Shown here: positions 30,796-35,879 of the stretch, piece after piece
Numbering within the stretch: position 1 is the first letter of the stretch
Layout of the letters: every line of letters starts with the position of its first letter
Position numbers and translations under genes: made by a program
NCBI GenBank assembly: GCA_026461075.1
Contig: JAPJNH010000102.1
Coordinates: 1-45,842 of the forward strand
DNA: 45,842 nt
Direction of reading: 5' to 3'
Origin: Chitinophagales bacterium
GTDB taxonomy: Bacteria; Bacteroidota; Bacteroidia; Chitinophagales; CAIODY01
The notes under the pieces: generated by a model
Told to the model about the DNA's origin: nothing
Database searches by the model: none
Seen by the model: only the letters and a program-made list of their open reading frames with translations

Positions 30796-31683
30796 TTATT
30801 TCTTTGAGTTAATAGAAGATTTAACCTTGATTAAACTTATGTCAAAAATAAGGCAAGCATTTGATGGAATTGGCCCAGATGAACGTTTGCCATAAGCTAG
30901 ACCCGATGGAATGTAAATCTGCCCCTCTGAGCCTTCAGCAAAGTACAATAATCCCTGGTCCCATCCCTTAATTACGTTGCCTTTACCAAGTATAAAATGA
31001 AAAGGCTCCGGATGACCGAAACGCGCATCGGTATTGGAATCGAAAATAGTCCCATCTAATAATCGTCCAGTATAATTTACCCAAACTGTGTCGCCTGTTT
31101 TTGCCATTGCTCCCGTTCCTGGTTTGTTCACAAAGTAACGTAGACCGTTATTGGTTCCTATGCACTTTCTGTTCTTCTGAGCTAAATAGTTGTCTATTAA
31201 AATTGAATCCTTATTAGCTTGGGCTTGAAATTCAGTTTTAGTCTTAAGTTCCCAATCTGCTTTGCTCATAAAGTCTATTAAGGTGATATAAAACTTCATG
31301 TATTTTTTAGGTCGTGCAAATTGCGGCATATATTTCCCATAGAGGGAATCGCAGGAAATAAAAATCAATGCACTATCGCCCTTGTGTAGAAAGCATAATT
31401 GTTCGTTTAAATCATTTTTGAAGCCTGGTTTTTCAATGGTCAGTTGTTGCATGCCAAACTCCTTGTGCGTATCAAAAATGACTGTGTCTTTAAAGTTCTT
31501 TAAAATTAATTGGTAATAAATAATATTTCCTTGTTTGGGATGTAGGCTGTCCTCGCCCCTTTTTAAAAGGATTAAGGAGTGCTTGTTTTTGATTCCACCT
31601 AAAAGAGATTTTCCCCATACTGCATTTGTTTGCAATAAGGGGAAAATAACTAAAGAGAAAATTAATGTTCTTAGGGAAAGCAT
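30796..31683 (-). CDS. exported FKBP-type peptidyl-prolyl isomerase
   Basis: A 295-residue protein with a signal peptide (cleavage near residues 20-24). Residues ~25-180 are an N-terminal domain that resembles the one in the next FKBP (sharing DSLYGKYMPQF-type and KFYITLIDF-type segments). Residues ~195-290 form the FKBP domain, with VWVNYTGRLLDG, FDSN, VIKGWDQGLLYFAEG, IYIPSGLAYG and LIFDISLIK. It should catalyse proline isomerisation during folding of envelope proteins. Its ATG overlaps the stop of the upstream two-domain FKBP by one base, so it is the last gene of the six-gene operon. Confidence 0.92.
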   Translation of the reverse strand: MLSLRTLIFSLVIFPLLQTNAVWGKSLLGGIKNKHSLILLKRGEDSLHPKQGNIIYYQLILKNFKDTVIFDTHKEFGMQQLTIEKPGFKNDLNEQLCFLHKGDSALIFISCDSLYGKYMPQFARPKKYMKFYITLIDFMSKADWELKTKTEFQAQANKDSILIDNYLAQKNRKCIGTNNGLRYFVNKPGTGAMAKTGDTVWVNYTGRLLDGTIFDSNTDARFGHPEPFHFILGKGNVIKGWDQGLLYFAEGSEGQIYIPSGLAYGKRSSGPIPSNACLIFDISLIKVKSSINSKK

Positions 31684-32978
31684 TATTTAAAGTCGATCAA
31701 TTCAACCTCAAAAATCATAGGTGAGTTGGCAGGAATACTTGGGCTAGGAGAATTTTCTCCATAAGCTAGATTAGAAGGGATATAAAGCACAGCCTTTGCG
31801 CCTTTGTTCAAATAAGAGAAACCGAAATCCCAACCTTGTATTACGTTGCCTTGCATAATGTTGAATGAAAACGGTTCTACGTGCCCAAATTGCGGATCAA
31901 CGTTCGAATCAAACTTTGTACCGTTCAATAACATACCTGTGTATGACGCAGTTACTTGCTGACCAGGTTTTGGTGTTTCCCCCGTACCTGCTTTCAAAAT
32001 TCTGTAATAAATACCTTCTTTTGTTTTAACTGCATCAGTGATGTTGTTGTCTTTAAAGTATTTGGTGAAAGCATCTTCTTGACCTTTGAAATCTACTAAT
32101 TCCACATCGAATACTAGGGTAGAGTAGGCAGGAATAGAACCTTGAACACGATCGCCATAGCCTAAGGAAGAAGGTACATAGATAGTCGCTTTCTCACCTT
32201 TCTTTAAAATTGAAAAGGCAATATCCCAACCTTTAATAACACGACCTTGACCTAATGGGAAGGAGAAGGGTTGCACATGATGAAAAGCTGAATCTACATT
32301 GGAATCGAATTTTTTACCATCCAAAAATTTGCCAGTATAATTTGCGGTGATGTTGTCCCCGTTATGCGCTTTTTCTCCAGTTGTAGCCTTTGTAATCACA
32401 TAGTAAATACCTTCTGGCGATTTAATCGCATTAATCTTATTAGCCTTGAAATATGCTTGTAATGCCGATTCTTCTCCAGCTTTTTTCTTTTCTGCTTGAA
32501 TCTTTGCCTCCGCATCCATTTTTGCAATCATTTCATTTGTAAACGTTCTGAATACAATATTCATGTATTCTCCGTTTTCAAAACCAGGATGTGCTTGTCC
32601 TTTAGCTATTGAATCAATATTTGCTTTAATAACGGCACTATCTCCGTTTTTTAATTCATAGATCGCAGGTAGGATAAAGGCATAGGGTCCGAATGTTTGA
32701 TTTGATAAAACGTAGTCTTTCATCACTCCAAAATCTTGCGCCTTTCCATCCTTCATAACGAGGATGATTTGCATATTACATTTTGAACCGTCACTTAATG
32801 TGGCAGCATCAGCAGTATGATTTGGCATCGCCTTTAAGAAAAGTCCTTTTTTAACGGGCATAAAACCAGTGAAGGTAGTAGGTGCATCAATTTGAGAGGC
32901 TACTATCGTTTCTTGAGCCTTACTGTTGAAGCTCGTTGATAAAACTAAAATCAGACTAAGTAATGCGATTTTTTTCAT
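31683..32978 (-). CDS. exported protein with two FKBP domains
   Basis: A 431-residue protein with a signal peptide ending near residue 21 (SKAQ). The first ~185 residues include a region like that in the following gene (YGPYAFILPAIYEL) and a Lys/Glu-rich linker (AEAKIQAEKKKAGE). Two FKBP domains follow at about 190-300 and 325-431, each with NYTGKFLDG or SYTGMLLNG, FDSNVD, VIKGWD or VIQGWD, and IPAYSTLVFDVELVDF or IPANSPMIFEVELIDF. The tandem domains suggest binding of long or repeated substrates. It starts ten bases after the upstream gene of the operon. Confidence 0.93.
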   Translation of the reverse strand: MKKIALLSLILVLSTSFNSKAQETIVASQIDAPTTFTGFMPVKKGLFLKAMPNHTADAATLSDGSKCNMQIILVMKDGKAQDFGVMKDYVLSNQTFGPYAFILPAIYELKNGDSAVIKANIDSIAKGQAHPGFENGEYMNIVFRTFTNEMIAKMDAEAKIQAEKKKAGEESALQAYFKANKINAIKSPEGIYYVITKATTGEKAHNGDNITANYTGKFLDGKKFDSNVDSAFHHVQPFSFPLGQGRVIKGWDIAFSILKKGEKATIYVPSSLGYGDRVQGSIPAYSTLVFDVELVDFKGQEDAFTKYFKDNNITDAVKTKEGIYYRILKAGTGETPKPGQQVTASYTGMLLNGTKFDSNVDPQFGHVEPFSFNIMQGNVIQGWDFGFSYLNKGAKAVLYIPSNLAYGENSPSPSIPANSPMIFEVELIDFK

Positions 32979-32988
32979 GCTATTATTG

Positions 32989-33873
32989 TTATTTGGATTG
33001 TAAATTTAATTGAATTAAACGTTCCTTCAAATTTTGTTTTAAGGGAATCGTCAATGAATTGTTATAATCACTTGTTAATTTATCTGCTCTTCTCAAACCT
33101 CCTGTATAAAATCGTTGAAACAAAGTATAGCCTATTAATATTCCCGTTGCATAGTAACCTTTGTAAATGCATAAGGCCGTAAATCCTAGGGTCGCTAAAT
33201 TCAGGCCGAAATTAACTAAGCCTTCCTCAAAATGACCAGTATACATCTGACCGGTTCCTGGAATGAATGCGGAGAAAAATGCCGCTTTTTTCGCAGACTT
33301 TAATTTTAAGTTTTTTCCAACTTCTATAAGTGAATCAATGGTACTCGCTCTGTCTATAGGTAATTGAAAGGATGTTTTAAATGTTGTGAAGGTAGTGTAG
33401 AGTTTTGGGTAGTCGTCTTTTGAAAGTAATATTAGGCATTTTAGAAGTTGCGCAGCAGTATCACGACTCAAACCAATACTGTCATTTAATTCATATTGTT
33501 GTATAATTGACAGCGAGTTATCCTCTTCCTTATTCAAATAAGCACAGAGTGCAGTTGAATTATAATAGTGCTTAAGTTGTTGGGCAGGAATAGCATAAAC
33601 AGGGATTCTTTCCACTACCTTACTCGCTTGCGTTATCTCTCCCTTTTCTAGTAAGTGATCTATTTTGTCAAGTAAATGAATGTATTTATTATCTGTTGTG
33701 TCTGAATAAAAAGCGTATTCGTCCAGCAATGTATTAGTTGCAGGATTTTCATTAGACAACTTTACATTCGTTATAACAGTATTGAGCTCTTTTTTACTAC
33801 TATCTACTTGCGTCATACCTTTCAAAGGCAGACAAAGTATGATAAAGCAAAACACTTTTATAAAATGCTTCAT
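32989..33873 (-). CDS. exported protein with PGTGQMYTG hydrophobic module
   Basis: A 294-residue protein with signal peptide MKHFIKVFCFIILCLPLKGMTQ. The middle is helical and TPR-like (residues ~60-190). Residues ~200-265 form a hydrophobic module of two to three segments headed by SAKKAAFFSAFIPGTGQMYTG, followed by a short amphipathic tail. The module resembles that in the gene just upstream. The start codon lies 74 bases inside the end of that gene, in another frame; the signal peptide makes this start convincing. No named family was assigned. Its operon neighbours point to envelope protein biogenesis, which is inference. Confidence 0.78.
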   Translation of the reverse strand: MKHFIKVFCFIILCLPLKGMTQVDSSKKELNTVITNVKLSNENPATNTLLDEYAFYSDTTDNKYIHLLDKIDHLLEKGEITQASKVVERIPVYAIPAQQLKHYYNSTALCAYLNKEEDNSLSIIQQYELNDSIGLSRDTAAQLLKCLILLSKDDYPKLYTTFTTFKTSFQLPIDRASTIDSLIEVGKNLKLKSAKKAAFFSAFIPGTGQMYTGHFEEGLVNFGLNLATLGFTALCIYKGYYATGILIGYTLFQRFYTGGLRRADKLTSDYNNSLTIPLKQNLKERLIQLNLQSK

Positions 33874-34690
33874 TCTCCTTCTTTTTAATTTTTACACTGT
33901 ATACGGTGCCGATGATATTTCCTGCATAAAAAGCACTGAAGGCGGCATAGCTTGCGATTGCAGGCCAACTGGTCCAACCTTGTTTTATACCCAATTCTAG
34001 TGCCACACCTCCTAAAACTGAATTAATGATTAGGGCAGCAAAGGGGGTTCCAAAATAACCTGCGTACCATTTACCCGCACCAGGAACAACAGCAGATAAT
34101 AAGCCTGCAACTAGCGCTGATTTATTTTTTGGGTGTTCTAGCACTTGTATCGATTTAAGAATGTCTTTTACATCTTCTGAAGTAAGTAGAGTTAGTCTAG
34201 GTATCATGTTACAAGAAAAAGGGGAAAGTTCTTTCTTTTGTCGTATTATCGTATCATAAATATTTAGAATAAATATTAATTCTTCTTGCTTGTCATTTTT
34301 GATATTACTAGTTAATTGATTTAGTTTGCTACAAGCAATACTGTCTTTTTTTAGTTTAATGGCAGCAAGACTCTCTAATACTAGAAAATTAAAATACAAA
34401 TCACTGGTATCGTTTTGACGCCAGAAAATGTCATCCTTTAAGATACTTTCGTATTTGCCAAGTTCTAAAGCTGCAAGGGCGTGGTGATATACTAGCGGTT
34501 CGCTTTTGTAATTCTGATCAATACCCGCTTGCGTTAAATTATAAAGAGCCTCAAATTCACCTGTTCTAATGAGGTGCTTGTAAAAACTTACGTGATTGAT
34601 TAAGCTCGAATCACTTTGTGCAAAACTCGTCGTAAATGTGAATGCTAATAACCCAATAAATAGTTTGAGTACCCCTATGTAACGCTTCAT
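33800..34690 (-). CDS. exported protein with PGAGKWYAG hydrophobic module
   Basis: A 296-residue protein with a signal peptide ending near residue 25 (TSFAQ). Residues ~30-185 are helical with TPR-like repeats (YHHALAALELGKYES). Residues ~195-270 hold two to three hydrophobic segments headed by KNKSALVAGLLSAVVPGAGK and WYAGYFG, matching the module in the next gene. It overlaps the YidD-like gene by four bases (ATGA) at its start and the next gene by 74 bases at its end. The pair looks like an old tandem duplication that has diverged. The function is unknown; the membrane module could sit in the inner membrane facing the periplasm. Confidence 0.78.
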   Translation of the reverse strand: MKRYIGVLKLFIGLLAFTFTTSFAQSDSSLINHVSFYKHLIRTGEFEALYNLTQAGIDQNYKSEPLVYHHALAALELGKYESILKDDIFWRQNDTSDLYFNFLVLESLAAIKLKKDSIACSKLNQLTSNIKNDKQEELIFILNIYDTIIRQKKELSPFSCNMIPRLTLLTSEDVKDILKSIQVLEHPKNKSALVAGLLSAVVPGAGKWYAGYFGTPFAALIINSVLGGVALELGIKQGWTSWPAIASYAAFSAFYAGNIIGTVYSVKIKKKENEAFYKSVLLYHTLSAFERYDASR

Positions 34691-35145
34691 CTTTTGAATT
34701 GATAATTTTCTAAGGGATCAATTAAATGATTGTCTTTGCTTAAATTAACTGGAGTTATATCATACTTTAAAAATTCATTGCATCGCATCAATCGATCCGC
34801 GCTCAAAGCAATCCCTTTAAATAATCCATAACGGTTAATGGCCGCTTTACTGAAATTTGAGCAAGATAATTCATACGGACATTCAGCAGCAAATTGCGCA
34901 GATAAAAAACGCTGGTAGGTATACATTAAGCCAACAAACACAAGATGCACCGGGTTGTATTTCGCTAACTTTTTAGTTGATTTGCTTTTTAAAAAACTTA
35001 CGTGCTTAACACTTGGTTCATAAGCTTTTTCTGGTGCTTGTGCTCTTAAAATTTCTTGATAAAAGGTAAGGTCTTGAGCCTTCAACGTTGAAGTTGAAAG
35101 TAGTAGTAATAGCACACATAAAACGGAAGAAAAAATAGTCTTCAT
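34687..35145 (-). CDS. YidD-like protein with signal peptide
   Basis: A 152-residue protein. Residues 62-125 match YidD, the membrane-protein insertion efficiency factor: YNPVHLVFVGLMYTYQRFLS, then C89-P-Y-E-L-S-C95-SNFSKAAINRYG, LFKGIALSADRLMRC122. Unlike standard YidD, which is a short cytoplasm-facing protein, it begins with a signal peptide (MKTIFSSVLC...TLKAQ), so its conserved core should lie in the periplasm or outer membrane, and it has ~25 extra C-terminal residues. It sits two bases after the LolA-like gene and overlaps the following gene by four bases. Whether this branch handles insertion is not known. Confidence 0.82.
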   Translation of the reverse strand: MKTIFSSVLCVLLLLLSTSTLKAQDLTFYQEILRAQAPEKAYEPSVKHVSFLKSKSTKKLAKYNPVHLVFVGLMYTYQRFLSAQFAAECPYELSCSNFSKAAINRYGLFKGIALSADRLMRCNEFLKYDITPVNLSKDNHLIDPLENYQFKR

Positions 35146-35147
35146 AT

Positions 35148-35879
35148 TTATTTCTTTTGAGCAGTTTCTATTCGTTTTGCAGAGCTTGGAATAGTGAAGT
35201 TAATATAGCTCTTATCACAAGCTGTATTTGTTTTAAATTCTGAAAAATTCCTTTGTGTGATTACAGAATCAGTTTTACTCGTGAATTCAATCTCCGTCAT
35301 AGTGCTTGGAAGCATAATTGAAGATACTTTTACATAATTGTCATAATATATCTTCAAGTTAGTAAACTTCTTTTCGTTGGTAAAACTCATATAAATAGGT
35401 AAATTCTTTTCTTGCGCTAAAATTATTTTAAGAATTCCTTTGCTTCTCTTTTCAATAGGCACCCAGGTAGTAACCAATATTCCATCTTTATCTTTTTTCG
35501 TTTCACTGATTTTATAGCCATTTTGTTTTAATCCTAGATCACCGGTTGCGCCGTAAATAAAGTTGTATAAAAAACTGTTCTTGCTACTCAAATCCATGTT
35601 GTTCAAAGAAACATATGTGTTTTGCTTCGAATTATACACCTTCATATCGCCATTTACGTAGTTTATGGCCACTTGGTCGATAGGAGAGATTGCATGAGTA
35701 ACCATTGTTTGCTTAACGATATCAAAGTAAAGAGTTGAATTTACTTTAACATATTGTTTGCCTTGCAGCGTTCTTGCAAGCATATTGACTTGTAAAAATT
35801 GTAAGTTTCCTTGTGGGAAGAAGGCTAGTAAGGGTAGAATAGCAATTAGAACTATGGCTACTAAATTCCATTTTCTCAT
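35148..35879 (-). CDS. LolA-like exported protein
   Basis: A 243-residue protein with an N-terminal hydrophobic signal or anchor (residues 5-22, IVLIAILPLLAFF). The rest is predicted beta-rich with a few helices; segments such as VYNSKQNTYVSLNN, TTWVPIEKRSKGILKIILAQ and KIYYDNYVKVSSIMLPSTMTEIEF resemble the half-barrel of LolA/LolB and related outer-membrane lipoprotein-sorting proteins. It is the first gene of the six-gene operon, two bases before the YidD-like gene. The link to lipoproteins is by fold resemblance only; a related lipid-binding role is possible. Confidence 0.6.
   Translation of the reverse strand: MRKWNLVAIVLIAILPLLAFFPQGNLQFLQVNMLARTLQGKQYVKVNSTLYFDIVKQTMVTHAISPIDQVAINYVNGDMKVYNSKQNTYVSLNNMDLSSKNSFLYNFIYGATGDLGLKQNGYKISETKKDKDGILVTTWVPIEKRSKGILKIILAQEKNLPIYMSFTNEKKFTNLKIYYDNYVKVSSIMLPSTMTEIEFTSKTDSVITQRNFSEFKTNTACDKSYINFTIPSSAKRIETAQKK

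Follow-up and report, generated by a model that had tools for sequence, protein, structure and literature searches.

The 45,842-nucleotide contig JAPJNH010000102.1 of a Chitinophagales bacterium (assembly GCA_026461075.1), which in its full length is called the window here, carries on its reverse strand a gene for a YidD family protein with a signal peptide, named yidDx (34687-35145, 152 aa, MKTIFSSVLCVLLLLLSTSTLKAQ). The gene is part of a cassette whose conserved unit is yidDx-PG1-PG2, usually with a LolA-like gene, PG1 and PG2 being two paralogous exported proteins, and this cassette goes with small exported TM2 proteins. An earlier note on the same DNA missed the link to the TM2 proteins; its suggestion of an undescribed envelope module is supported, and the cassette is conserved across the phylum Bacteroidota. 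None of the three outcomes by which the note would have been refuted was encountered.

The conservation was followed with a profile built from 14 exported YidDs. A scan of about 85,000 genomes yielded 80 exported yidD loci, mostly from Bacteroidota metagenome-assembled genomes (MAGs), and the isolates with an exported yidD are Marinilabilia salmonicolor, M. rubra and Anaerophaga thermohalophila. Scan loci and relatives together gave 92 distinct cassettes, in which the partners were identified with local profiles. The neighbourhood recurs in other genomes across the phylum: PG1 directly follows yidDx in all 92 cassettes, PG2 comes next in 88 (it was not found in the remaining 4) and a LolA-like gene lies upstream of yidDx in 67. 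The yidDx-PG1-PG2 order is also present in 12 out of 12 fetched loci of a divergent class (families f37 and f55), and no LolA-like gene was found alongside in these loci. In some genomes two cassettes adjoin each other and point in opposite directions. Among 61 relatives, full-length PG1 was detected in 13, with an adjoining yidDx in 11 and a position at a contig end in 2. The distribution is patchy, as many genomes in a phylum sample of 392 have no exported YidD and about 50 have a second YidD match. The reading frames of PG1 and PG2 overlap in 88 out of 88 pairs, out of frame and with a median of 65 bases, and the signal peptide of PG2 is encoded within this overlap, i.e. in the 3' end of PG1 (33800-33873 in the window, and 87 related loci). 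The long overlap is conserved across Bacteroidota and missing in the divergent class. Since full synteny is seen in two congeners, and the core recurs at every exported yidD locus examined, the gene order in the window is not due to chance. Two further loci were noted. A Geobacter-labelled MAG (L126, 5740-7172) has a reduced pair, an exported YidD and one TPR-TM2 protein, meaning that a two-gene form of the cassette may exist outside Bacteroidota. A contig filed as Candidatus Parcubacteria (L097) bears a Bacteroidota-type cassette and is probably a mislabelled or mixed MAG.

In its domain YidDx is a YidD (PF01809; TIGR00278, membrane protein insertion efficiency factor), with three Cys and the YQ..IS......C.y.PtCS core. 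The window protein matches PF01809 over residues 69-133 of 152 (E 6.6e-17, 61.5 bits, cut-off 27) and scores 62.1 bits against the TIGR00278 equivalog, i.e. above the cut-off of 40, so the YidD domain behind a signal peptide described in the earlier note is indeed there. Both exported copies tested score above the equivalog cut-off, and exported copies are therefore likely annotated as ordinary YidD and thus hidden. YidDx differs from canonical YidD in several respects. Firstly, YidDx has a signal peptide and a length of about 150 aa, as opposed to about 80 aa. Secondly, DRL.RC stands where canonical proteins have KR..RCHPWGG: in the exported rows DR replaces KR (or WR) ahead of the third Cys, and the HPWGGhG.DPVP tail is gone, while the divergent exported class retains two Cys and has Asp in place of the third. 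Thirdly, the core is less basic, the mean net charge being +7.4 in canonical (n=44), +3.2 in exported (n=94) and -3.0 in divergent exported proteins (n=12), a shift that would be expected from a loss of contact with the acidic inner leaflet or with the ribosome. Finally, YidDx is linked to PG1/PG2 and canonical YidD to rnpA.

Signal-like N-termini were found in about 90 of 98 diverse YidDx sequences (about 125-200 aa long), xAxAQ-type cleavage sites in 70, and no lipobox in 94; a further hydrophobic or transmembrane segment is absent in 97. Taken with the charge loss, these features predict a core outside the inner membrane, as the earlier note had proposed, and cleavage of the N-terminus or its retention as an anchor would both leave the core in the periplasm. 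In a tree of 151 YidD cores (87 columns), the inner forks of which are weak, one branch parts the exported from the canonical proteins with a Shimodaira-Hasegawa-like approximate likelihood ratio (SH-aLRT) of 97 and one change. This branch leaves every exported row on the same side, and YidDx does not cluster with canonical YidD. No relative of YidDx with a solved structure was found by sequence.

The source genome (2.5 Mb, 166 contigs, 99.7 % complete, 4.13 % contamination) contains four YidD matches, two short canonical ones located after rnpA (contigs C31 and C80) and two exported ones, the window copy and a copy on contig C62 that follows dxs and is followed by a PG1-like gene. The window gene as the only yidD of the genome is thereby ruled out. 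The canonical yidD that the earlier note proposed to look for is present after rnpA on C31 and is orthologous to the copy of a clean congener, G002 (1 % contamination), which has the same YidD set with one canonical copy. As the C31 copy, and not the C80 copy, groups with that of G002 in the tree, the second rnpA-yidD pair, at C80 (L049, 1552-2176), is probably from a contaminating organism. Contamination as the source of the cassette itself is ruled out, as the whole six-gene operon of the window is matched protein by protein in G002 (61-91 % identity) with the same flanks. The C62 copy (L048, 1-1113; also L038-L041) is an exported YidD with PG1/PG2 directly after dxs; this type has no LolA-like gene, occurs in the window's genome and a congener, and forms its own clade in the tree together with related copies.

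A signal-peptide-like segment is found at the N-terminus of all four core proteins, i.e. the LolA-like protein, YidDx, PG1 and PG2. The LolA-like gene (35148-35879, reverse strand) is the first of the operon and encodes 243 aa with a type I signal and without a lipobox. The earlier assignment to LolA stands in its fold rather than in family searches with the window protein, which has no Pfam match and hits NCBIfam LolB1_Flavo below the family cut-off (E 0.002). PF17131 LolA_like is matched by 16 of 45 relatives, and the AlphaFold2 (AF2) model has a LolA/LolB-superfamily fold with a mean predicted local distance difference test (pLDDT) score of 95.0. Foldseek matched this model to LolA/LolB structures at E 3e-10 to 4e-7, the best TM-score being 0.61 (P. 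gingivalis LolB, 9tpm). A lipobox-like match is present in 1 of 71 LolA-like sequences.

PG1 (33800-34690, reverse strand, 296 aa) has a signal peptide, a predicted periplasmic TPR-like domain and a C-terminal TM2-like hairpin (PGAGKWYAG ... FYAGNIIGT). Its paralogue PG2 (32989-33873, reverse strand, 294 aa) consists of a TPR part and a DUF5683/TM2-like hairpin. The earlier note saw two related exported proteins with a shared hydrophobic PGxG module; their homology is confirmed over about 100 residues (E 1e-9) and the module is indeed shared, but what had been missed is that the module is a membrane hairpin of the TM2/DUF5683 kind attached to a TPR domain. The PG1 and PG2 profiles match TPR proteins, and the C-terminal third resembles TM2 and DUF5683. 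Window PG2 itself remains below the DUF5683 (PF18935) cut-off of 26.7 with 18.8 bits (E 0.0017), and 28 of 46 PG2 relatives match this family at E <= 0.01. The AF2 model of PG1 (pLDDT 90.3) shows a signal helix, TPR-like helices, the PGxG turn and two long helices. Its whole chain has no PDB match at E <= 0.001; structure matches are restricted to the TPR part, i.e. YbgF and, weakly, a PpiD-YfgM structure (E 1.5).

The association with small exported TM2 proteins emerged from clustering the flanks of 86 loci, where one dominant family was present in 41 loci. In its members, which are about 130-180 aa long, a signal peptide is combined with a short Y.LD...E..F segment, a TM2 hairpin that has an invariant HR, and a YxDNPKFFMW-like C-terminus. 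Pfam TM2 (PF05154) was confirmed in part of them (E 2e-15): the copies at loci L074 and L092 score 56.9 and 42.2 bits against a cut-off of 27.9, and other copies fall below it and were assigned from sequence similarity and an alignment. TMS (PPLGIPSFLWGFCLG), a related family, accompanies one YidDx clade, the second-cassette-type clade (12 rows, SH-aLRT 95). TM2 mini-proteins lie beside 46 of 62 cassettes that bear a LolA-like gene and beside none of 25 that do not (p = 2e-11). Among the relatives, TM2S or TMS matches occur in 9 of 11 yidDx carriers, one of which is the window's genome, as opposed to 0 of 50 other genomes (p = 3e-9), the TM2S and TMS profiles being derived from cassette-linked genes and the genomes being related. 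The window's genome encodes five such proteins on contigs other than that of the cassette, three of them in tandem, and its congeners encode two and three; since the hits in this genus are unlinked, synteny alone cannot explain the association. The copies are multiple and divergent, with up to 5 per locus. The tandem copies of the window's genome, three divergent proteins, lie at L184, 3858-5501. The TM2 mini-proteins are one of two widely recurrent flank families, the other being an exported TPR-like protein of about 300 aa (L073 4289-5215 and 20 other loci), for which Pfam gives no clear family.

In the window the operon comprises six open reading frames, all on the reverse strand. The tight packing described in the earlier note is confirmed by coordinates and spacings, which are, in operon order, +2 bases (LolA-like/yidDx), -4 (yidDx/PG1), -74 (PG1/PG2), +10 (PG2/FKBP2) and -1 (FKBP2/FKBP1). 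The six genes as such are not the conserved unit, since the two exported FKBP isomerases, FKBP2 (31683-32978) and FKBP1 (30796-31683), are additions that accompany the cassette in the window's genus alone, which rules them out as core members. They contain three FKBP_C Pfam matches, two in FKBP2 and one in FKBP1. FKBP2 was also considered as BamJ and rejected: it scores 165.7 bits against an NCBIfam cut-off of 100, but the score is spread over two FKBP domains, and perhaps the cut-off is passed only through the two adding up. A divergently oriented queA-like gene adjoins the operon start, and an epimerase gene and a polysaccharide-export-like gene lie downstream.

YidD is located beside nascent membrane proteins and is a cytoplasmic helper of YidC whose molecular activity is not clear. 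TPR domains often hold unfolded chains, FKBPs help folding, and LolA folds ferry greasy cargo across the periplasm. Because of the place of YidD and the roles of the TPR, LolA-fold and FKBP families, we tentatively favour, with somewhat less than even confidence, a module on the periplasmic side that handles exported TM2 hairpin proteins and hands them, or lipid cargo, to the LolA-like carrier. Such a module would be dedicated to envelope protein handling, with YidDx, PG1 and PG2 as its core and usually the LolA-like protein as a carrier. Once exported by Sec, YidDx would be held in a complex with PG1 and PG2 on the periplasmic side of the inner membrane, much as canonical YidD is placed next to YidC on the cytoplasmic side. 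In this position it would receive weakly hydrophobic hairpin proteins once they have crossed, above all the small exported TM2 proteins, which look like clients in that several different small hairpin proteins accompany a single conserved machine. The LolA-like protein would then carry them, or lipid cargo associated with them, on towards the membrane of their destination. What the analysis shows is the conserved gene order, the export signals, the modelled folds of the LolA-like protein and PG1, the separate YidDx branch, the lost charge and the co-occurrence with TM2 mini-proteins; that a complex forms, which proteins are its clients, which way they are passed and which membrane they reach are inferred. 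In the window's genus two FKBPs would be added as folding helpers, comparable to the PpiD/YfgM pairing at SecYEG.

Several points weigh against this proposal. The TM2 mini-proteins may be working subunits and not clients. The 25 cassettes with neither a LolA-like gene nor TM2 mini-proteins nearby indicate that the core acts without them beside it. The hydropathy of the PG1/PG2 hairpins is only moderate, and the membrane anchoring of these proteins is thus not certain. In addition, the p-values given above overstate the independence of the observations, owing to the cassette-derived profiles and the kinship of the genomes. A role in outer-membrane insertion, also raised in the earlier note, is a guess. 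We further speculate that Bacteroidota insert alpha-helical hairpin membrane proteins by a pathway that acts after export, a kind of "Lol pathway for helical hairpins", which we regard as unlikely: signal peptidase would free the small TM2 proteins into the periplasm, a periplasmic YidD/TPR-TM2 complex would take them up, and the LolA-fold carrier would ferry them to their membrane, possibly the outer membrane. If this were true, YidD would work on the side of the membrane opposite to its textbook place.

The main rival explanation, possible though rather doubtful in our view, is a route specialised for lipids or lipoproteins. The LolA-like protein would carry a lipid or lipoprotein from the inner membrane, PG1, PG2 and YidDx would be its inner-membrane release platform with a role that may resemble the receptor side of LolCDE, and the TM2 mini-proteins would serve as subunits or regulators and not as clients. 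The LolA/LolB fold speaks for such a route, and Bacteroidota are known to have LolA paralogues in loci dedicated to pigments (PMC11885536). Deleting every LolA/LolB homologue in F. johnsoniae is not lethal and does not affect where surface lipoproteins are localised, so other routes exist (PMC11885536); the paralogues can serve special routes, and other lipoprotein routes must exist (PMC11885536, PMC13103446). On the other hand, no lipid-synthesis gene recurs in the flanks of the 86 loci, an ABC-type ATPase is present in only 7 of them, which rules out recurrent transporter-type neighbours, and both the cassettes lacking an adjoining LolA-like gene and the several divergent copies of the mini-proteins are difficult to accommodate.

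It is unlikely, though the idea deserves some weight, that YidDx, PG1, PG2 and the TM2 mini-proteins form one stable sensor or structural complex of the inner membrane and periplasm, e.g. for stress sensing or as an envelope scaffold, with the YidD fold as a mere building block. TM2-like hairpins are common to PG1, PG2 and the mini-proteins, as if packing together, and TPR domains are scaffolds; but in the flank clustering no signalling gene was common to more than a few loci, and the carrier fold and, in the window, the isomerases would be left unexplained. Still less probable is a role of YidDx as an additional helper of the normal Sec-YidC insertase, in which it would serve inner-membrane proteins at large from the periplasmic side. 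Transport and cross-linking work lists E. coli YidD among the contacts of the SecYEG machinery (PMC8082313; statements on E. coli YidD rest on this source, PMC3573977 and general knowledge), but the linkage of yidDx is strictly to PG1/PG2, none being seen to yidC, and the patchy distribution in the phylum and the charge and motif changes argue against a general helper. A normal cytoplasmic YidD that has its neighbours by chance, with an N-terminal segment that is no signal peptide, is highly improbable given the signal-like N-termini and AQ sites, the exported operon partners, the lost charge and the presence of a canonical copy.

The proposed hairpin-handling module can be compared with systems that are already described. 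The LolA-like protein, in its AF2 model, shares its fold with LolA/LolB, including LolA1-3 and LolB1 of Bacteroidota, but it has no lipobox, whereas LolB is a lipoprotein, the window protein escapes Pfam and its gene is part of a yidDx operon; YidD is not mentioned in the F. johnsoniae LolA/LolB study (PMC11885536). The PpiD-YfgM pair at SecYEG may be comparable, since the cassette has exported TPR proteins with a predicted membrane anchor and, in the window's genus, isomerase-type proteins. However, the isomerases of the cassette are FKBPs and not parvulins, the putative anchor is a C-terminal TM2-like hairpin, and PpiD-YfgM has no counterpart of the YidD and LolA-like partners. TM2 (PF05154) and DUF5683 (PF18935) proteins have the hairpin domain that is found in PG1, PG2 and the mini-proteins, but here it is exported with a signal peptide and fused to TPR or to the short Y.LD...E..F segment. 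The BAM complex of F. johnsoniae (BamA, D, G, H, M, P), from the same phylum, has an isomerase-fold subunit, BamM, and serves outer-membrane assembly, but its reported subunits include no YidD, LolA-like, TPR-TM2 or TM2 mini-protein (PMC12611786).

The literature searched, from which subscription papers and preprints were largely absent, contains no description of an exported YidD or of a TM2-YidD link, and no relevant description of DUF5683. While the parts are known folds, the system is undescribed in this literature. An old YidD branch has moved across the inner membrane, always with the same partners, in many Bacteroidota, which provides a natural relocation experiment for YidD research. 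The cassette further marks out a defined group of exported membrane proteins that are as yet unstudied, and cultured carriers exist for genetics. It points to an undescribed machine that builds the cell envelope.

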